Source of the DNA: Sphingomonas cannabina
Lineage (GTDB): Bacteria > Pseudomonadota > Alphaproteobacteria > Sphingomonadales > Sphingomonadaceae
Length of the DNA stretch: 64,000 nt
Reading direction: 5' to 3'
Assembly (NCBI RefSeq): GCF_021391395.1
Contig: NZ_CP090059.1
Location: forward strand, 3,333,001 to 3,397,000
The translations under genes were made by a program, and so were the position numbers. Below are positions 4,235-20,160 of this stretch, piece after piece. The notes below the pieces were generated by a model that saw nothing but the letters and a program-made list of their open reading frames with translations, had not been told where the DNA came from and did not search any database. Numbering within the stretch: position 1 is the stretch's first letter; the number at the start of each line of letters is the position of its first letter.

Positions 4235-4440
4235 GTTATCGCGTCGGAGGCAGGTCTCCTGGCTCACGGGTCGTCACGCCGGCCTGGCCTTCCCGGAGCG
4301 CTTGCCGCCCCAGTGACACGTATCGGCCGCCGCTCGCCGCTCACAGTTGCGGGGGCAGCGCCGGAGTTGGGCACGAGGCCCGCACCGGCTTCCCGTCTTA
4401 GCTCCGCCGCAAGGGCGGAGAACCTCGACGGTGGGAATGT
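4235..4440 (-). promoter_or_regulatory. Cobalamin (B12) riboswitch upstream of metE
   Basis: Read on the minus strand, the leader shows the hallmark segments in the right order: TAAGACGGGAAGCCGGTG, then GCTGCCCCCGCAACTGTGA, then the GTCACTGG box, then GGGAAGGC, then the B12 box AGCCAGGAGACCTGCC (about 4245-4262). About 110 bases separate the B12 box from the metE start, enough for an expression platform. This class turns off B12-independent enzymes when adenosylcobalamin is present. Exact ends are approximate. Confidence 0.95.
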
Positions 4441-9187: not shown

Positions 9188-10057
9188 ATGACAGCTCCTC
9201 CGCCGGATCGGTCGCGGGATCGCCGGATCGAGGATCCGACGAACCTCTGGATCATCCACCCCGCAGGCCGGTTCCTGTTGCCGTGGTTCATTGCGCGCGG
9301 GATCTCGGCCAATGCCGTGTCGCTGGGCGGATTGGCCCTCGGCACGCTGGCGGCGCTTGCCTATGCGCACTGGGACGTGCGGCCGTTCGCGTTCGCCGGG
9401 CTGCTCCTGTCGATCGGCTGGCTGATCGCCGACGGGCTGGACGGGATGATCGCCCGCGCGACGGGCACCGCCAGCCCGCTGGGGCGCACGCTCGACGGCC
9501 TGTGCGATCACGGCGTCTTCGTGCTGATCTATGTCGTTCTGGCGCTGTCGATCGGGACGGCGGAGGGCTGGGCGCTGGCATGTACCGCGGGGGCGGCCCA
9601 TGCGCTGCAGTCCAATCTCTACGAAGGCGAGCGCGCACGGTTCCACCGCCGCTGCAAGGGCATCGCGGCCGTCGCGCCGATCCCAAGCGGCAATCCGGCC
9701 GCAAGGCTCTACGACCTGGTCGCGGGCACGCTGGACCGGTTCGCGGCGCCCTTCGACGACAGCCTGCGTCGCCAGAACGACCCGGCACGGCTTGCCGACG
9801 CATACGGCGCGCGGGCCGTCGGGCCGATGCGGCTGATGAGCCTGCTGTCGGCCAATGTGCGAGTCTGCACGATCTTCCTCGCCTGCCTGGCCGGCGATCC
9901 CCGGCTGTTCTGGTGGTTCGAGCTCGGCCCCCTCAGCGCGATCCTGATCGCCGGGCTGGTCTGGCACCGCGCCGTCGAGGCCCGCCTGATCCGAAGCGCG
10001 GGCACGGCGCGCGAGCATCATTCTTCACCTACTACCCTACCCACTCAAAGGACGTGA
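9188..10057 (+). CDS. CDP-alcohol phosphatidyltransferase-family membrane enzyme
   Basis: 289 residues, about six membrane helices. The family signature D-xx-DG-xx-AR-x8-G-xxx-D-xxx-D is complete: D82, D85, G86, A89-R90, G99, D103, D107. These aspartates bind the two metal ions and the CDP-alcohol. The next gene, eight bases on, makes inositol-1-phosphate and the third is a nucleotidyltransferase resembling CTP:inositol-1-phosphate cytidylyltransferases. The likely substrate is therefore either CDP-inositol (giving a di-inositol phosphate or an inositol-phosphate polymer/lipid) or CDP-diacylglycerol with inositol-1-phosphate (giving phosphatidylinositol phosphate). The sequence alone does not decide. 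Confidence 0.88.
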   Translation: MTAPPPDRSRDRRIEDPTNLWIIHPAGRFLLPWFIARGISANAVSLGGLALGTLAALAYAHWDVRPFAFAGLLLSIGWLIADGLDGMIARATGTASPLGRTLDGLCDHGVFVLIYVVLALSIGTAEGWALACTAGAAHALQSNLYEGERARFHRRCKGIAAVAPIPSGNPAARLYDLVAGTLDRFAAPFDDSLRRQNDPARLADAYGARAVGPMRLMSLLSANVRVCTIFLACLAGDPRLFWWFELGPLSAILIAGLVWHRAVEARLIRSAGTAREHHSSPTTLPTQRT

Positions 10058-10064
10058 CGAAGTC

Positions 10065-11156
10065 ATGAAGACCATCAACATCGCCGTGGTCGGCGTCGGC
10101 AATTGCGCCAGCTCGCTTGTTCAGGGCCTCACCCATTACCGCGACGGCGCGAACGAGACGATCGGGCTGATGCACTGGGACCTCGGCGGCTATCAGCCGA
10201 GCGACATCCACGTCGTCGCCGCCTGGGACGTCGACCGGCGCAAGGTGGGCAAGGACGTCGCCGAGGCGATCTTCGCCAAGCCGAACTGCACCGCGATCTT
10301 CTGCGAATCGATCGAGCCCACCGGCGCCATCGTGCAGATGGGCCGCATCCTCGACGGCGTCGCCGACCACATGGCCGATTATGCCGACGACCGCACCTTC
10401 CTCGTCTCCGACGCCAGGGAGCCGACCAAGGACGAGGTCGTCGCGATGCTCCGGGCGACCAAGACCGACGTGCTGATGAACTATCTGCCGGTGGGATCGC
10501 AGGCGGCGAGCGAATTCTACGCCGAATGCGCGCTCGAGGCGGGCGTCGCCTTCGTCAACAACATCCCCGTGTTCATCGCCAGCAACCCCGAATGGGCCGA
10601 GCGCTTCACCCAGGCCGGCGTGCCGATCATCGGCGACGACATCAAGGCGCAGCTGGGCGCGACCATCGTCCACCGCGTGCTGACCGACCTGTTCGCCAAG
10701 CGCGGCGTCAAGCTGGAGCGGACCTACCAGCTCAATACCGGCGGCAACACCGACTTCCTCAACATGGCGAACCACCGCCGGCTCGCGTCGAAGAAGATCT
10801 CCAAGACCGAGGCGGTGCAGTCGGTCGCGGCCGAGCGGCTGGAGGACGAGAACGTCCATATCGGCCCGTCGGACTACGTCCCCTGGCAGAACGACAACAA
10901 GGTTTGCTTCCTGCGCATGGAGGGCGCGATGTTCGGCGGCGTGCCGATGAACCTCGAGCTGCGCCTGTCGGTGGAGGACAGCCCCAACTCGGCGGGCGTG
11001 GCGATCGACATGATCCGCTGTGCCAAGCTGGCGAAGGACCGCGGCCTCGCCGGCCCGATCGACGCCGCGTCGGCCTTCTTCTGCAAGCATCCGCGCACGC
11101 AGATGACCGACGACCTGGCCGCACGCGCGGTCGAAGACTTCATCACCGTCCAGTGA
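10065..11156 (+). CDS. ino1: Inositol-1-phosphate synthase
   Basis: 363 residues, matching the short prokaryotic form of the enzyme. It converts glucose-6-phosphate to 1D-myo-inositol 3-phosphate (L-myo-inositol 1-phosphate) with NAD. The NAD-binding motif VVGVGNCASSL is at 8-18; later blocks NYLPVGSQAAS, NNIPVFIASNP, GDDIKAQLGATI and LNTGGNTDFLNM match the catalytic core of the family. The gene is tightly packed with its neighbours (7 bp after the phosphatidyltransferase, 1 bp before the nucleotidyltransferase), which indicates one operon. Confidence 0.95.
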   Translation: MKTINIAVVGVGNCASSLVQGLTHYRDGANETIGLMHWDLGGYQPSDIHVVAAWDVDRRKVGKDVAEAIFAKPNCTAIFCESIEPTGAIVQMGRILDGVADHMADYADDRTFLVSDAREPTKDEVVAMLRATKTDVLMNYLPVGSQAASEFYAECALEAGVAFVNNIPVFIASNPEWAERFTQAGVPIIGDDIKAQLGATIVHRVLTDLFAKRGVKLERTYQLNTGGNTDFLNMANHRRLASKKISKTEAVQSVAAERLEDENVHIGPSDYVPWQNDNKVCFLRMEGAMFGGVPMNLELRLSVEDSPNSAGVAIDMIRCAKLAKDRGLAGPIDAASAFFCKHPRTQMTDDLAARAVEDFITVQ

Positions 11157-11157
11157 G

Positions 11158-11886
11158 ATGATCGAGACCGCGATCCTGCTCGCGGCGGGCGAAGGCAGCC
11201 GTCTCCGCGCCGCGGCGCCGCTGAAGCCGCTGTGCATGGTGGGCGGCCGTTCGCTGCTCGGCCATGCGCTCTGCGGCCTCGCCGAAGCGGGGCTCGCGCG
11301 GGCGGTGATCGTGCTCGGCTACGGCGCCGAACGGATCGAGGCGCACATCGCGGCGCATCCATGGTCGCTCGCGGTCGAGACCGTCAGGACCGACGACCAC
11401 CGCAAGCCCAACGGCGTGTCGGTCCTGGCCGCCGAGCCGCTCGTCGGCGGCGAGGACGCCTTGCTCGCGATGTGCGATCATCTCGTGGAGCCCGAGCTTT
11501 ATCGCCGGACCGCCCGGGCCGGGGCGTCGGCCGGCGCCCGGCTGGCGATCGATCGGCGGATCGGGAGCGACTGGGTCGACCTCGACGACGTCACCCGCGT
11601 GCAGACCGACGGCGAGCGGATCGTCGCCATCGGCAAGGGGCTGGAGCCCTATGACTGTTTCGACACTGGCGTGTTCGCGATCGGGCCGGCCCTGTTCGCG
11701 GCGCTTCGCGGGCTCGAAGCGCCGTCGCTGACCGAGGGGATGCGCGTCCTCGCGGACCAGGGGACGGCGCTGACGCTCGACTGCGGCGACCTGAACTGGA
11801 TCGACGTCGACGACCAATGGGCGCTCGACAAGGCCAGGCTCTGGCACGGAACGCCGGCGCGGCGAGTAGGCATCCAGGCCGCCTGA
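11158..11886 (+). CDS. NTP-transferase-family protein, probable inositol-1-phosphate cytidylyltransferase
   Basis: 242 residues with a sugar-nucleotidyltransferase fold: nucleotide-binding loop ILLAAGEGSRL (6-16), PLKPLCMVGGRSLL, the metal-binding segment AMCDHLVEPELY, and WIDVDDQWALD near the C-terminus, which resembles the WxDVDTxxD motif of CTP:inositol-1-phosphate and related cytidylyltransferases. It would activate inositol-1-phosphate to CDP-inositol. Its position directly after the inositol-1-phosphate synthase supports that substrate. Other nucleotidyltransferase activities cannot be excluded from sequence alone. Confidence 0.82.
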   Translation: MIETAILLAAGEGSRLRAAAPLKPLCMVGGRSLLGHALCGLAEAGLARAVIVLGYGAERIEAHIAAHPWSLAVETVRTDDHRKPNGVSVLAAEPLVGGEDALLAMCDHLVEPELYRRTARAGASAGARLAIDRRIGSDWVDLDDVTRVQTDGERIVAIGKGLEPYDCFDTGVFAIGPALFAALRGLEAPSLTEGMRVLADQGTALTLDCGDLNWIDVDDQWALDKARLWHGTPARRVGIQAA

Positions 11887-11958
11887 GCCCTGGAACCAAC
11901 AACTTCCGGCGATCCGAGACACTTTCCCCTCCTTCTCAGTCGTCGTTCAACCCGATGA

Positions 11959-12444
11959 ATGTCGATCCGTCCTGGAACGATCGCCGGGGGCCTCCCCCAT
12001 TCTGGAGCGCTACGGCGCAAGGTCTGGTCCGAGCGCCGGCACCGTCCGGCCGGCGAGGTCGTCGCCGCCGACTTCACGCTGCGCCAGCTCACCCATATCG
12101 AGCTGATCCTCGACTGCAGCGGCCGCGGCCTGGCGCTGATCGACGCGTGGACGCGCCGGCCGGGCCTTTACGGCGATACCGAGGCGCTCTTCGCCAGCCC
12201 GATCAGCAGCCACCTGGAGGAGATCCGCCGCGCCGTCTGGGAAGAGCTGGGCGATCCCCCGCGCCCGCCCCTCCCGCTCGACGCGAAGCTCCCGCACGCC
12301 GCTCTCTCGGGCGGACCGACCAACGTCGAACGGCGCAAGGCCCGCCGCGACGCGGAACGCCGGATCGCCGAGGCCCAGCGCGAATGGGAGGCGGCGGCGC
12401 GGGAGGATAGTTGGGAGGCGTGGAAGATGGGGCGGGGCGGGTGA
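11959..12444 (+). CDS. Hypothetical protein, 161 residues
   Basis: The frame shows the strong G/C third-position bias of real genes in this genome over residues 40-115 (for example TLRQLTHIELILDCSGRGL), and the C-terminus is a charged helix (NVERRKARRDAERRIAEAQ). The N-terminal 30 residues are less convincing and no ribosome-binding site is visible at ATG 11959, so the start is uncertain. No family recognised. It separates the inositol cassette from the accessory ATPase cassette. Confidence 0.55.
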   Translation: MSIRPGTIAGGLPHSGALRRKVWSERRHRPAGEVVAADFTLRQLTHIELILDCSGRGLALIDAWTRRPGLYGDTEALFASPISSHLEEIRRAVWEELGDPPRPPLPLDAKLPHAALSGGPTNVERRKARRDAERRIAEAQREWEAAAREDSWEAWKMGRGG

Positions 12445-12564
12445 GGTTTGGGTCGGAAGCGGACTGGCAGCTTTCGGATCGCTTGCACGCTAAACGGACG
12501 ATTGTTCAGAAAGCCTGTAGAGTTGCCGAGGCCCAATTGTGGACTTCGGTGCAGTGCTTTTAGG

Positions 12565-12604
12565 CATAATAGTCGTACGACTCGGGCCGTCCGAGATTTC
12601 GGAC
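12565..12604. promoter_or_regulatory. Palindrome-rich control region of the accessory cassette
   Basis: A CATAAT sequence (12565-12570) that could be a -10 box abuts a perfect 12-bp palindrome AGTCGTACGACT (12571-12582). A stem GTCCGA-4 nt-TCGGAC follows at 12589-12604. Together they lie 55-95 bases before the first cassette gene. No well-spaced -35 was found. The 215-bp gap 12445-12659 has no gene and is less GC-rich than its surroundings. Confidence 0.5.
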
Positions 12605-12659
12605 AGGGCAATTGACGGGCGACGGTCGCGACTGTCACATGGGTCTTGGGGGTGATTAG

Positions 12660-13079
12660 ATGGCGTACGGGCAGGATCTGCAGGGCTCGGCGCGGCGCCA
12701 TTTGAGAGCAGCGACAGAATTGCATCAGCTCGCTTCTGCCGGGGCACAGCCGGGATGCAGAGCGGTCGCTGGCTATCTTTATGGCTTGGCAGGCGAGCTG
12801 GCCATCAAGGCCCTGATGCGGACCAGCGGCATGGCGCCGCTGCCGCCAAAAGAGCGACGCGACGATCCCTATTATGCCCATTTTCCCGAGCTGAAGACGC
12901 AGTTGCGCAACACGGCTCAGGGACGGCGGTCAGGCGAACTGCTCGCGATTGCCAACTCCAATCATTTTCAAAACTGGAGCACGGATATGCGCTATGCTCC
13001 GGCGGCGGAGGTGCAGCCCGGGTGGATCGAAGCCTGGAAAGCAAGCGCGCATAGTCTCGTCGAAACAATGGACGCGTAG
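12660..13079 (+). CDS. Small HEPN-like protein of the accessory cassette
   Basis: 139 residues from ATG 12660 with GGGGGTG nearby as ribosome-binding site. The pattern is that of compact four-helix HEPN-like proteins: VAGYLYGLAGELAIKALMR resembles their characteristic central helix, and AHFPELKTQLRN the following segment. A possible R-x6-H nuclease-type motif is RDDPYYAH (R and H at about 66 and 73), but it sits between helices and may be chance. No closer match recognised. It is followed after two bases by the MinD-like ATPase gene, so it is the first gene of a three-gene unit. Role unknown; toxin, adaptor or nuclease are all open. Confidence 0.7.
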   Translation: MAYGQDLQGSARRHLRAATELHQLASAGAQPGCRAVAGYLYGLAGELAIKALMRTSGMAPLPPKERRDDPYYAHFPELKTQLRNTAQGRRSGELLAIANSNHFQNWSTDMRYAPAAEVQPGWIEAWKASAHSLVETMDA

Positions 13080-13081
13080 TG

Positions 13082-14422
13082 ATGGCCGGACCCCTTTTCG
13101 ACGATTCCCTCGCTGTCCTTGTCGCCACGCTCGCCGACCTCGTCGATGGCGAGTTTGTCGAAGCGGGAACTGCGCTTCGCGATGCCTCCGGGCAGCTGAC
13201 GTTCATCGCGGGGCGCGAAGCCGCGGACGATGCGGAACGCGACAAACTCGGGGCCGCGCTGATCGAGGCGCTGGGAAGCTATGCTCGAACGGATCGGCCG
13301 ATCAGCTTTCGCGGCGACAGCGGAAGCGAGCGGTTGCTGTCCGCGCCCGAGCGGCTTCCGGTCAAGGTCGGGGACCGATTTTGCCAAGTCATCGATCGGC
13401 GCATCGTGGGCGCAGGCTGGCTGGACGAGCCGACTTCGGTGGCAACAGATCCGCCCCGCGTCGTGTTCGCTACCCTAAAGGGAGGGGTGGGTCGGTCGAC
13501 GGCGCTTGCGATTGCCGCCGCCGACCTGGCCCGCCGCAACCGGAACGTGCTTGTGGTCGATCTCGACCTCGAAGCGCCGGGTCTCGGCGATCTCCTGCTT
13601 GCGTCAGACCGTACGCCGGAGTTTGGTGCCATCGACTACCTTGTCGAGGACGGCCTCGGCGGCATCGCGGACAGCGACTTGTATCGGTTCATCGGCTCAA
13701 GCGGGCTGACCCAGGGCGGCGGCGGACGCGTCGATGTTCTTCCCGCGCTGGGCAGGCGATCCAACAATCAGCCCGAAAATATCCTGCCGAAGCTTTCTCG
13801 GGCGATGATCGAAGATGTCGTGGGGGGCAATTCGATCCCGGTCGCAGCGCAGATCTCGAAAATGATCGCCCGCATCACAGCGCGCGAGCAGTACGACGTG
13901 GTCTTTATCGACAGTCGCGCGGGCCTGTCCGAGCTGGCGGCGCCCGCAGTGTTGGGTTTGGGTGCAACGGTTCTCCTGTTCGGAACGGCTCAGAAGCAGA
14001 CGATCGAAGGGTATCGCGCGTTGTTCGCGGCGCTCCAGTTGCTTGCACAGCGCGATACCGCAGCCGGCCGCGACGCGGATTGGCGCATGATGCTAAAGCC
14101 GGTCTACGCCAAGGCGAGCCTTGACGCGAGTGTGTCGGAACGCTTTGTCGATGAAATGTACGAACTTTATTCAGCTCATCTCTACGATGCTGAAACCGAC
14201 GGCGCGGAAGCGATTGATCTGCTTCGCTTCGCGCGCTCGGACGAGTCCGCTCCGCACTGGCCGCTCATCGTGCCCTTCAGTCAAAGCTTCGTCGATTTCG
14301 ATCCCGGCCGTAATGCCGATCAGCTCACCCAAAATTTCTACGAGCAGACCTATCGTGAATTCCTGTCCGGTCTCGACGCTGCGATAAACGCTTCCACGTT
14401 TGCCAGCGAGCCGAACGCGTGA
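13082..14422 (+). CDS. MinD/ParA-like ATPase with variant KGGVGR P-loop
   Basis: 446 residues from ATG 13082 (a GTG at 13079 overlaps the previous stop and would add one residue). Residues 1-125 match nothing I recognise. A ParA/MinD-type domain follows: deviant Walker A KGGVGRST starts at K133, DLDLEAPGLGDLLL is the switch/Walker A' region, and VVFIDSRAGLSEL the Walker B. The signature lysine is kept, but the P-loop lysine is arginine. From memory, a family with this KGGVGR variant is known without an assigned function. The domain may bind ATP and dimerise as a switch rather than turn over fast. It ends in a GTGA overlap with the next gene. Confidence 0.82.
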   Translation: MAGPLFDDSLAVLVATLADLVDGEFVEAGTALRDASGQLTFIAGREAADDAERDKLGAALIEALGSYARTDRPISFRGDSGSERLLSAPERLPVKVGDRFCQVIDRRIVGAGWLDEPTSVATDPPRVVFATLKGGVGRSTALAIAAADLARRNRNVLVVDLDLEAPGLGDLLLASDRTPEFGAIDYLVEDGLGGIADSDLYRFIGSSGLTQGGGGRVDVLPALGRRSNNQPENILPKLSRAMIEDVVGGNSIPVAAQISKMIARITAREQYDVVFIDSRAGLSELAAPAVLGLGATVLLFGTAQKQTIEGYRALFAALQLLAQRDTAAGRDADWRMMLKPVYAKASLDASVSERFVDEMYELYSAHLYDAETDGAEAIDLLRFARSDESAPHWPLIVPFSQSFVDFDPGRNADQLTQNFYEQTYREFLSGLDAAINASTFASEPNA

Positions 14423-15870
14423 ACGCTATCCAGCCAGATTTCGCAGTCCTCCGTGACGCGATCGCCGCATTCGACCCGTCACCGCGGGTCGAACCCAATG
14501 CAACGATCTCGGTCGAGGAGGCTTTCCTGCCCGCAGGCCATCGCGGGGTTCTCGATCTTCGCCGCCAGTTGGTCGTCGGCAATCGGGGTATGGGCAAAAG
14601 CTTCTGGACCCATGCTCTGCTCAGCGGGGATCTGCGTAGCCGCCTTGCTGAAGTCTACAAGCATCCGCAGCTCGCGAACGCCGATGTGGTCATCGGCTTC
14701 AACGGTTCGAGCAAGGAAAGCCCGACCGCACCGACGGTCGACGAGATTACGTCGCTCTACGCTGGCGGCTGCGACCCCGACCTGATCTGGCGGGCGGTCA
14801 TGATCCGGATCGCGTCGAGAGCTCTTCCGGGTAAGCACAGCGGATCGTTGGACGGCATCATCGCTTCCCTGGGCACTGATCCCAATCTCTATTCGAGGAT
14901 ACTGTCGCAGGCCGATGACGAGTCGGCGCGCACCGGCAAGACACTTCTGGTGGTGTTCGATGCGCTCGATCGTCTTGGGCGGGATTGGGAAAGTATCCGG
15001 CAGTTGACCCGCGCGCTTCTGGCGCTGGCTGTCGGGCTGCAATCTTTCCGGGCGATCCGCGCGAAGATTTTCATGCGGGTCGACCAGTTTGCCGATCAGG
15101 AGCTGTTCCGTTTCCCGGACAGTTCCAAGATTAAGAACGATCATGTCGACCTGTTCTGGCGGCCAGCTGAGCTGTACGGCCTGCTGTTGTTCGAGCTTCT
15201 CCGCGATCCACAGGCCAGCGGTCCGCTCAAGGAGCTTGCGGAGCGGGAGGACGCGATTGCGGCGCTCCCGAATACGGGCGCCCAGATTTGGTCGTCTGAG
15301 GAGACACAAGCCCGAATCATTAACGGGCTCGCAGGGGAGTTCATGGGGAGCAACAAGAAGCGCGGTCGCGTCTATTCCTGGCTACCACTTCACCTAAGTG
15401 ATGCGGCCCAGACCTGTTCTCCACGCATCTTCCTGACCGCCTGGAAAAAGGCGGCTGAACATTATCCCGCTCCAGCAGGGCGCGCGGTCGATCATCTCGG
15501 TCTTCAAGAGGGCGTCCGTCAGGCATCGAGCAGTCGGCTCGAAGAGCTCTACGAAGACTATCCGTGGATTCAGCCTGCGCTCGAAGCGCTTCGCCGTCAG
15601 TTCGTTCCGATGGAGCGCGAGCAGTTATTCGAATTGTGGGCGTCTGAGCGTGTCGTCGATAGAATACGGGAAAAGGCGGCATCGGATGAGTCCCGTACGC
15701 CGGTGAAGTTTCTCGCAGGAGACGAGCCTTCCGCGTTGCTCTCGTCGATGCGCGACGTCGCGGTCATGGAAGAGCGGGCCAACGGCAAGATCAACGTCCC
15801 TGACATCTACCGCGTCGAGGCAGCGATTCTCCGCAAGGGCGGCGTGGCAGTGCCAAAACGCCGGGGCTAA
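14419..15870 (+). CDS. P-loop ATPase of the accessory cassette
   Basis: 483 residues from GTG 14419, overlapping the previous stop by 4 bp. Walker A GNRGMGKS is at 54-61 and a Walker B-like LLVVFDALDRL at about 175. Between them lies a long insertion, and after them an arginine-containing segment (AIRAKIFMRVDQF). The plan resembles KAP/STAND-like or AAA-type NTPases that sense or remodel a partner. The C-terminal 200 residues are charged and mostly helical, with no recognised domain. It shows less extreme GC and codon bias than flanking core genes such as lepA. No nuclease or membrane segment is visible, so the effector of the cassette, if any, is one of the other two proteins. Confidence 0.8.
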   Translation: MNAIQPDFAVLRDAIAAFDPSPRVEPNATISVEEAFLPAGHRGVLDLRRQLVVGNRGMGKSFWTHALLSGDLRSRLAEVYKHPQLANADVVIGFNGSSKESPTAPTVDEITSLYAGGCDPDLIWRAVMIRIASRALPGKHSGSLDGIIASLGTDPNLYSRILSQADDESARTGKTLLVVFDALDRLGRDWESIRQLTRALLALAVGLQSFRAIRAKIFMRVDQFADQELFRFPDSSKIKNDHVDLFWRPAELYGLLLFELLRDPQASGPLKELAEREDAIAALPNTGAQIWSSEETQARIINGLAGEFMGSNKKRGRVYSWLPLHLSDAAQTCSPRIFLTAWKKAAEHYPAPAGRAVDHLGLQEGVRQASSSRLEELYEDYPWIQPALEALRRQFVPMEREQLFELWASERVVDRIREKAASDESRTPVKFLAGDEPSALLSSMRDVAVMEERANGKINVPDIYRVEAAILRKGGVAVPKRRG

Positions 15871-15970
15871 GGCAGACGACCGACCGGGCGCGCGGGTGTC
15901 GTCCGCTGCTAATTGACAACCACGGCCGTGCGCCGAATCCTGGCTGCCGACGCTGCCGCGCTGAGTTCGC

Positions 15971-16019
15971 CGCTCAAAAGTACGTCCGCTTATGAGTCGT
16001 CGACGACGTACGTTGAGCG
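15971..16019. other. Large imperfect hairpin at the 3' side of the accessory cassette
   Basis: Left arm CGCTCAA-AAG-TACGTC (15971-15986) pairs with right arm GACGTA-CG-TTGAGCG (16005-16019), 13 base pairs around a small internal loop. The perfect palindrome GTCGTCGACGAC (15996-16007) overlaps the loop and right arm. No T-run follows on either strand, so it is not a typical terminator. The rest of the gap 15871-16050 holds nothing I recognise. Confidence 0.55.
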
Positions 16020-16050
16020 ACTGAGTTGAGGGCGCAAAGCCACTCCGCCC

Positions 16051-19087: not shown

Positions 19088-19606
19088 CTATCCGAGCCCG
19101 GCGCCGCGGATCGCCGCCATCGCGCTCTCGAAGCGCGCCTCACCCTCGCCCCGCACCCAGGCCCAGCGGAGGCCGCGCCGCTCCAGTTCCTCGCGCGAGA
19201 CGTCGAGGAAGCGCTGGCGGAGCTCGGCCGTGCCGAACAGGCGGGTGCCGTCGTCGATCCACGGCAGGTCGATGTCGAGCAGCAGATAGAGATCGGCGGT
19301 GCCGCTCCAGCGGTCGAACCAGGGATCGCGGCGCCCGAACAGCATCACCGCCCAGGCCGCGGTCATCAGCGGGTCGGTGTCGAGGATCACCGGATCGACG
19401 CCGCGCGCGACCGCTTCCTGCGTCAGCCGGTCGTGCGTCTCGGCGATCTCGACCAGGTCGGCCATGGTGAAGTCGGTCCCGCGCTCCTCGGCGAAGGTGC
19501 GGCCATATTCGGCGACCACCTCGCCGCCGAGCGCCGCCGCCAGCCGCGGGGCGAGCGTCGACTTGCCGGTGCTTTCCGGCCCGTGGAGGCAGATCAGGCG
19601 GCTCAC
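19088..19606 (-). CDS. NadR-like nicotinamide riboside kinase (AAA ATPase family)
   Basis: 172 residues from GTG 19606, which overlaps the pnuC stop as GTGA. Walker A GPESTGKST is at 9-17; further landmarks are EYGRTFAEERG, DTDPLMTAAWAVML and DLYLLLDIDLPW, all typical of the C-terminal kinase domain of NadR. The HTH and adenylyltransferase domains of E. coli NadR are absent. It would phosphorylate imported nicotinamide riboside to NMN in the cytosol, and coupling to pnuC strongly supports this. Confidence 0.9.
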   Translation of the reverse strand: MSRLICLHGPESTGKSTLAPRLAAALGGEVVAEYGRTFAEERGTDFTMADLVEIAETHDRLTQEAVARGVDPVILDTDPLMTAAWAVMLFGRRDPWFDRWSGTADLYLLLDIDLPWIDDGTRLFGTAELRQRFLDVSREELERRGLRWAWVRGEGEARFESAMAAIRGAGLG

Positions 19607-20160
19607 GCCCGCATCGCCCGCCGCCAGCCGATCAGGCCCCATACCGACATCGCCAGGAAGACCGCATAGAGCGCGGAGGTCGCCCACAGGTCGCGCACCG
19701 CGTAGAGCGGGATCGCGAGCAGATCGACGGCGATCCACAGCACCCAATTCTCCCAATAGCGGCGCGACAGCAGGATCTGGCCCGCGACGCTCAGCATCGC
19801 GATGCCGGCGTCCCACCAGGGATAGGCGGCGTCGGTATGGCGGTGCATCAGCCAGCCCCAGCCCGCCGTCGCCGCCGCCACGGCAGCGATCCAGGCCAGC
19901 CGTGCGGCGCCGGACAATCGCTCGACCCGCACCTCGCCCTGCTCGGCGCGGCTGCGCGACCAGTTCCACCAGCCGTAGAGGTTGACCGCGAAGAAGAAGA
20001 GCTGGAGCAGCGCGTCGGAGTAGAGCTTCGCCTCGAAGAAGACGACGCCGTAGAGCGACACCATCGCCAGCGCGAACGGGTAGTTCCACACGCTGCGGCG
20101 GACGACGAGGACGATGTTGGCGAGGCCGAGCGCGGCGGCGGTCAGCTCGATGGGGCTCAC
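19603..20160 (-). CDS. pnuC: Nicotinamide riboside transporter
   Basis: 185 residues from GTG 20160 (VSPIELTAAALG), chosen because upstream codons read into the family A repeat and an unstructured stretch. Six to seven membrane helices. The pattern NLYGWWNWSR and YWENWVLWIAVDLLAIPLY is typical of PnuC, with the Trp/Asn substrate contacts. It carries nicotinamide riboside across the inner membrane by facilitated diffusion, trapped by the kinase encoded just downstream. Confidence 0.93.
   Translation of the reverse strand: MSPIELTAAALGLANIVLVVRRSVWNYPFALAMVSLYGVVFFEAKLYSDALLQLFFFAVNLYGWWNWSRSRAEQGEVRVERLSGAARLAWIAAVAAATAGWGWLMHRHTDAAYPWWDAGIAMLSVAGQILLSRRYWENWVLWIAVDLLAIPLYAVRDLWATSALYAVFLAMSVWGLIGWRRAMRA

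Follow-up and report, generated by a model that had tools for sequence, protein, structure and literature searches.

A coupled three-gene set in Sphingomonas cannabina matches the catalogued candidate PDC-M28 and is probably a mobile defence cassette

What is the role of three tightly coupled genes, coding for a small HEPN-like protein and two different ATPases, in the genome of Sphingomonas cannabina? The genes (A, B and C, together the trio) occupy positions 12660 to 15870 of the stretch of DNA that was analysed, which is 64,000 nt long (positions 3,333,001 to 3,397,000 of contig NZ_CP090059.1) and is called the window below. An earlier note, made from the letters alone, had read them as an accessory cassette with the sensor-switch-effector logic of defence islands, matching no named system. 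The answer reached here is that the trio is, with good probability, a mobile cassette for defence against phages or mobile elements, of the candidate type PDC-M28. The coordinates and the two gene junctions were as the note had described, both P-loops (KGGVGR in B and GNRGMGKS in C) are present, and the features are the following.

12660..13079, + strand: gene A, 139-aa HEPN-fold protein, PDC-M28A
12879..12995, + strand: stretch of A from the conserved H74 to the invariant R111-Y112 (R13, E46 and K50 precede it; no conserved RX4-6H pair)
13082..14422, + strand: gene B, 446-aa MinD/ParA-like ATPase, extended N-terminally by about 120 aa, PDC-M28B (PADLOC PDLC04559, 5.3e-98; NCBIfam NF047398)
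13478..13495, + strand: deviant P-loop of B, KGGVGR, with the canonical lysine changed to arginine
14419..15870, + strand: gene C, 483-aa STAND/Orc-Cdc6-like ATPase, PDC-M28C
14578..14601, + strand: Walker A motif of C, GNRGMGKS (G54, G57, G59 and K60 in 36/36 loci)
14944..14970, + strand: Walker B-type motif of C, LLVVFDALD (D181 and D184 in 36/36 loci)

A and B are separated by a 2-bp gap (TAG-TG-ATG), and B and C are joined by a GTGA overlap; an alternative GTG start of B at 13079 would make it overlap the stop codon of A.

All three proteins match, over nearly their full length, the A, B and C models of PDC-M28 in PADLOC-DB 2.0.0 (6.4e-23, 5.3e-98 and 1.3e-117, respectively), and with this the claim that the set matches no named system falls. 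We take the window trio to be a member of this candidate on the strength of its sequences; its genes are also adjacent and on one strand, which is our own reading of what membership requires, the PADLOC system rule itself not having been seen. A literature search gave no paper naming PDC-M28. Searches on KGGVGR returned mushroom lectins only and those on Sll1717 nothing, and a search combining HEPN, MinD, ATPase and anti-phage found no such trio in the text examined. According to the excerpts of PMC12988326 consulted, PDC names go back to the 'guilt-by-embedding' preprint of Payne et al. 2024 (bioRxiv 10.1101/2024.01.29.577857) and most PDCs lack validation; excerpts of PMC13356809 describe PDC systems as typically poorly associated with other defence loci. 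The trio itself being already catalogued, the present analysis adds fold assignments for its proteins, a count of their P-loops, an empty site and a site of exchange, a position in a prophage, and the fusions.

The trio recurs. We compared 36 loci: three from a genome scan, 20 from 18 genomes, 12 from plasmids and that of the window. They were found mostly through C (L001-L003 through B) and are uninformative on A or B standing alone; nor are they fully independent, two genomes (G326 and G442) contributing two loci each and two Enterobacter loci being close relatives. With the first profiles, A, B and C were all present in 27 loci, in the order A-B-C and on one strand in every case (27/27). 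A broader profile of A revealed it directly before B in five more, bringing the count to 32 of 36; one of the five, L066, is itself in that profile, and its A is annotated as HEPN. C-like genes with no A or B detected are carried by two Streptomyces plasmids (L064, L065). The pairwise distances of the proteins are correlated (A-B 0.85, A-C 0.80, B-C 0.88; n = 26, none of 2000 permutations as high, relatedness uncontrolled; L051, where A is cut short, was excluded), as expected if the genes travel together. The recurrence that the earlier note had asked for was largely found: besides Pseudomonadota, a cyanobacterium has the trio, and its carriers include plasmids and predicted proviruses.

That the trio moves is seen in Tistrella, where genome G745 provides an empty site: a segment of 3,297 bp (L062:6171-9467), with no genes other than A, B and C, is replaced by 27 bp, and both flanks match. 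Plasmids of B. glumae provide an exchange site. They have a common left flank up to about L056:5865-5877, after which their contents differ, being the trio (L056, L142), a methyltransferase gene (L140) or, on pBIN_1 (L141:9944-11583), a two-gene HEPN plus ParA-type unit, the HEPN protein of which had no PADLOC or NCBIfam match. On p3_BGR21S (L139) the site holds a TrlF-family AAA-like ATPase (L139:2575-5661); there the common DNA on the left stops earlier, at 4324, and resumes at 9714.

Plasmids and predicted proviruses are among the carriers. C has matches in 20 plasmid records, the hosts of which include Alpha-, Beta- and Gammaproteobacteria, Streptomyces, Kitasatospora and Calothrix; 12 of the records were fetched, then H4, which stands outside the 36-locus count, while H3, H12, H15, H16, H17, H19 and H20 were left out. 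A tyrosine recombinase gene immediately precedes A in four of the 12 fetched plasmid loci. One such gene (L060:4848-5837) recurs on enterobacterial plasmids with changing neighbours (L143, L144), which in L144 include a ThsB-like TIR protein and mcr-10.2; 1152 records matched some part of that query, and the best 25 of the 1152 nearly all match at the recombinase. Among 16 IMG/VR contigs (predicted proviruses) with a relative of B, 13 carry the full trio, and the 63 open reading frames (ORFs) around ten of these trios gave matches that include integrases, repressors, terminases and a portal protein. In L153 the trio adjoins a pair of genes for a P2-like portal and terminase, and a P2-like terminase lies nearby in L158. 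P2-like phages have an anti-phage hot spot between gpA and the portal gene gpQ, as described in the portion of Rousset et al. 2022 consulted; the L153 trio occupies the portal side of this region, gpA not having been identified on the other. Some of the fetched loci are repeats (L149 is the Rhodovulum contig again, L135 is L062 again, and L159 differs little from L160). Phage records gave no match to C or B, nor did E. coli genomes to the Enterobacter trio DNA. As far as DNA comparison can tell, these cases show that the trio is horizontally mobile and that its three genes travel together in conserved order.

An alternative is an addiction or maintenance module, in which A would be a toxin that B and C restrain, the cassette stabilising the plasmids, prophages and islands that carry it, with defence as a side effect. 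Carriage on plasmids and predicted proviruses and the adjoining recombinase genes agree with this, as do the toxins of HEPN/MNT pairs that figure in the fold list of A. Two ATPases would be unusual for a toxin-antitoxin pair, however, and a Tistrella relative lives without the trio at an otherwise intact site; moreover, the trio is also found on chromosomes, inside BREX-2 and beside restriction-modification and Hma genes. We regard such a module as unlikely.

The settings last named point to defence. In two of the 12 fetched plasmid loci the trio lies inside BREX-2, on the same strand, with pglX on one side and DUF6079/phage-resistance, pglZ and brxD on the other; in another of the 12 it stands beside HmaC and HmaA, and in the Rhodovulum locus it follows the methylase, specificity and nuclease genes of a type I restriction-modification system. 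The gene content of these loci shows insertion into known defence settings, so the co-occurrence with defence genes that the earlier note had proposed to look for does exist at several loci. Same-strand embedding in BREX-2 and the position behind a type I system could also mean that the trio serves other immune systems (BREX, restriction-modification, Hma) in a regulatory or accessory capacity, rather than being a system in its own right. Against this, none of these systems is listed in the stretches read of the other annotated trio plasmid loci, and it is the trio by itself that is bounded at the empty site and in the site exchange; such an add-on is less probable still than an addiction module.

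What can be said of the proteins themselves? C contains a STAND-type ATPase module at the fold level (model residues 17-470), which bears out in part the earlier guess of a KAP/STAND protein. Its match to the Sll1717-family P-loop ATPases (NF047389), at 54.8 bits, is under the cut-off of 75 and does not place it in that family, and a PDB sequence search with the C profile (E up to 0.1) found nothing. The module also occurs in larger proteins. In L052, B and C form a single ORF, and five loci of metagenome-assembled genomes (MAGs), from four genomes (L044, L045, L046, L053 and L054), have a long C extension. Pfam identified Metallophos and NACHT domains in the two extensions scanned (L046 and L053), the same motifs were read by eye in L044, and for L045 and L054 only the length is known. 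The phosphoesterase part of L046, the only protein scanned against NCBIfam in this respect, resembles DS9_1_antiphage (3e-27) and a further anti-phage protein (3e-21), both below cut-off. Fusion of C to Metallophos-NACHT in some genomes suggests that the trio module can also gate other effectors.

B scores 180.2 bits against the NCBIfam family AAA_KGGVGR (NF047398; curated cut-off 90) and is thus a member of it. Its P-loop reads KGGVGR in 51 of 52 sequences (32 loci and 20 homologues) and KGGAGR in the remaining one, so that the second, canonical lysine is an arginine in 52/52; we take the first lysine to be the MinD-type signature lysine. KGGVGR was likewise present in all 120 B homologues among the matches listed, some of which (Rhodovulum, Acidiphilium) also figure among the proteins of the loci.

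For A, a HEPN-like fold is predicted and places the protein in the HEPN superfamily. No Pfam family was matched by the window protein (E up to 1), HEPN_AbiV (PF18728) included, and a PDB sequence search with the A profile (E up to 1) was empty; HEPN_AbiV was matched by four of 27 A-family sequences (Pfam, E up to 0.01). The placement of A is therefore based on the fold and on its orthologues, and 'HEPN-like' stands in this sense, the window protein itself having no Pfam match. R13, E46, K50, R111 and Y112 are conserved in 27/27 aligned sequences, and H14, H74 and W106 in 26/27. Elsewhere in the same genome (G000, L131-L133) there are four PF05168 HEPN matches, none at the trio.

Several observations weigh against a defence role. 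There is no published assay of PDC-M28 that we could find. C stands without A or B in four of the 36 loci (L039, L054 and two Streptomyces plasmids). Eight neighbour proteins in L002, L003, L057, L058 and L066 (for L066, those of the two genes after the trio) had no PADLOC match, and no defence gene was identified beside the window trio, where PADLOC was not run on the flanks and the names given by Pfam are not those of BREX, restriction-modification or Hma components. In the MAGs, 129 PADLOC families were counted over 68 trio neighbours versus 95 over 75 control ORFs, which is no enrichment (families were counted, not proteins hit, and the control ORFs came from stretches chosen arbitrarily in 17 of the genomes). 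RX4-6H, the canonical motif of HEPN RNases, is not conserved in A, the best pair of columns being filled in 10 of 27 rows, which, as read from the alignment, do not include the window protein. Finally, C has no C-terminal repeat or sensor region: of its 483 residues, the STAND match already reaches residue 470. The defence reading is based on the embedding, hot-spot and exchange cases, not on enrichment statistics, and on these we hold it to be probable. The interpretation of the earlier note is partly supported on the whole: its suspicion of defence was well placed, and it was right on the coupling of the three genes and on their accessory nature; the word 'effector' fits less well a HEPN-like protein lacking a conserved RNase motif.

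A working scheme can be proposed for such a cassette. C, the STAND-type ATPase, would sense an invasion signal or assemble on it; B, MinD-like with its lysine to arginine change, would act as the coupling switch, and probably binds ATP but turns it over slowly or not at all; A, restrained and then set free by B and C, would provide the output, either as an RNase whose active site is non-canonical (the candidate residues are R13/H14, E46/K50, H74 and R111/Y112) or as an adaptor. The relay in this form, with A as RNase, is a tentative proposal that we would not bet on, RNase activity of A being its weakest step. Slightly more doubtful is the full version, in which a one-shot MinD-like switch with an arginine P-loop links a STAND sensor to a HEPN output that would cut RNA despite lacking RX4-6H, the whole being modular and gating Metallophos-NACHT effectors in the cases of their fusion to C. 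The HEPN plus ParA-type pair at the same site, whose HEPN keeps RX4H, and the C-NACHT fusions do suggest that gating of a separate effector by a MinD/ParA-type or STAND-type ATPase is a common theme. We know of no studied immune system that uses a MinD-type switch as in this relay.

MinD/ParA-type ATPases are best known from cell division and partition, and the fold family of B could indicate a housekeeping or partition function with a HEPN helper. The distribution of C and the P-loop change disfavour such a role. C was found in one of 298 family-sample genomes, the window's own, and is missing from the other 297, five of the same genus included; it occurs in six of 385 class-sample genomes (E up to 1e-20) and in 27 of 398 phylum-sample genomes (E up to 0.001), with most of the profile covered in 19 of the 27, as read from the table (the 19 include the window's own and G457, where it is in two pieces; the eight with weak or partial matches were not fetched). 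The P-loop lysine is replaced in every B counted above. Codon usage goes in the same direction, and as the earlier note had it: the GC content of the trio is 0.61-0.63 and its third-position value (GC3) is low, 0.69-0.73, while seven of eight flanking ORFs reach 0.86-0.96 (19088-20089, the eighth, is at 0.73; flanking ORFs were called in this analysis, with no annotation used). A housekeeping or partition role is thus very improbable.

The claim that the trio lies between core genes is borne out on the right, where lepA is matched over nearly its full length in 40 of 41 genus genomes (the remaining one, G691, 83% complete, gives a weaker GTPase match only); the left neighbour, ORF 11959-12444 (161 aa), had no match in Pfam or NCBIfam. 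Behind this ORF comes an inositol-phosphate synthase block. In the relatives fetched, this block and lepA are on separate stretches (five with the block, L104-L108, six with lepA, L098-L103, and none with both), which puts the trio at a synteny junction. The block itself (9188-11886) consists of CDP-alcohol phosphatidyltransferase, inositol-1-phosphate synthase and nucleotidyltransferase genes; it is conserved and likely serves inositol lipid synthesis. Window DNA 10000-16050 gave no blastn match within 1,500 bases past lepA in 29 genus loci, and no empty site was defined for the window itself. Direct repeats around the trio are short, imperfect pairs only. A promoter scan found none, versus 0.6 expected, and three terminator-like sites versus 3.3 expected; no tRNA was found between 6000 and 20000.

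Because of the empty site, the site exchange, the embedding in BREX-2, the P2-like portal position and the NACHT fusion, PDC-M28 is a good system to assay first. Its study would show how a MinD/ParA-type ATPase serves as an immunity switch, and whether a HEPN protein that lacks the usual catalytic motif is able to serve as an output.

How does the trio compare with known systems? With PADLOC's PDC-M28 it is alike in all three proteins, and no difference was found. The pBIN_1 pair resembles it in having a HEPN gene that adjoins a MinD/ParA-type ATPase gene at the same site, but has two genes, an ordinary KGGVSKTT P-loop, a HEPN with RX4H (RNAIVH) and no C. HEPN/MNT (HepT/MntA) toxin-antitoxin systems and AbiV share with A the predicted HEPN-like fold, four of the 27 A-family sequences matching HEPN_AbiV; the trio differs from them by the absence of an MNT gene, by the RX4-6H motif not being conserved and by its two ATPase partners. 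The vWA-MoxR ternary conflict systems, in the sections of Kaur et al. 2020 (PMC7159879) consulted, include a MinD/ParA-like domain, predicted to be inactive, within an NTPase-rich conflict system, whereas the trio has no MoxR or vWA gene. Lastly, the STAND NTPases (the archaeal ATPases 2qen/2fna, CED-4, Avs3 and the bacterial NACHT proteins) are similar to C in the ATPase module, and in some MAGs C is fused to a NACHT protein; the C of the window differs from them in carrying neither an appended effector domain nor a repeat region of its own.

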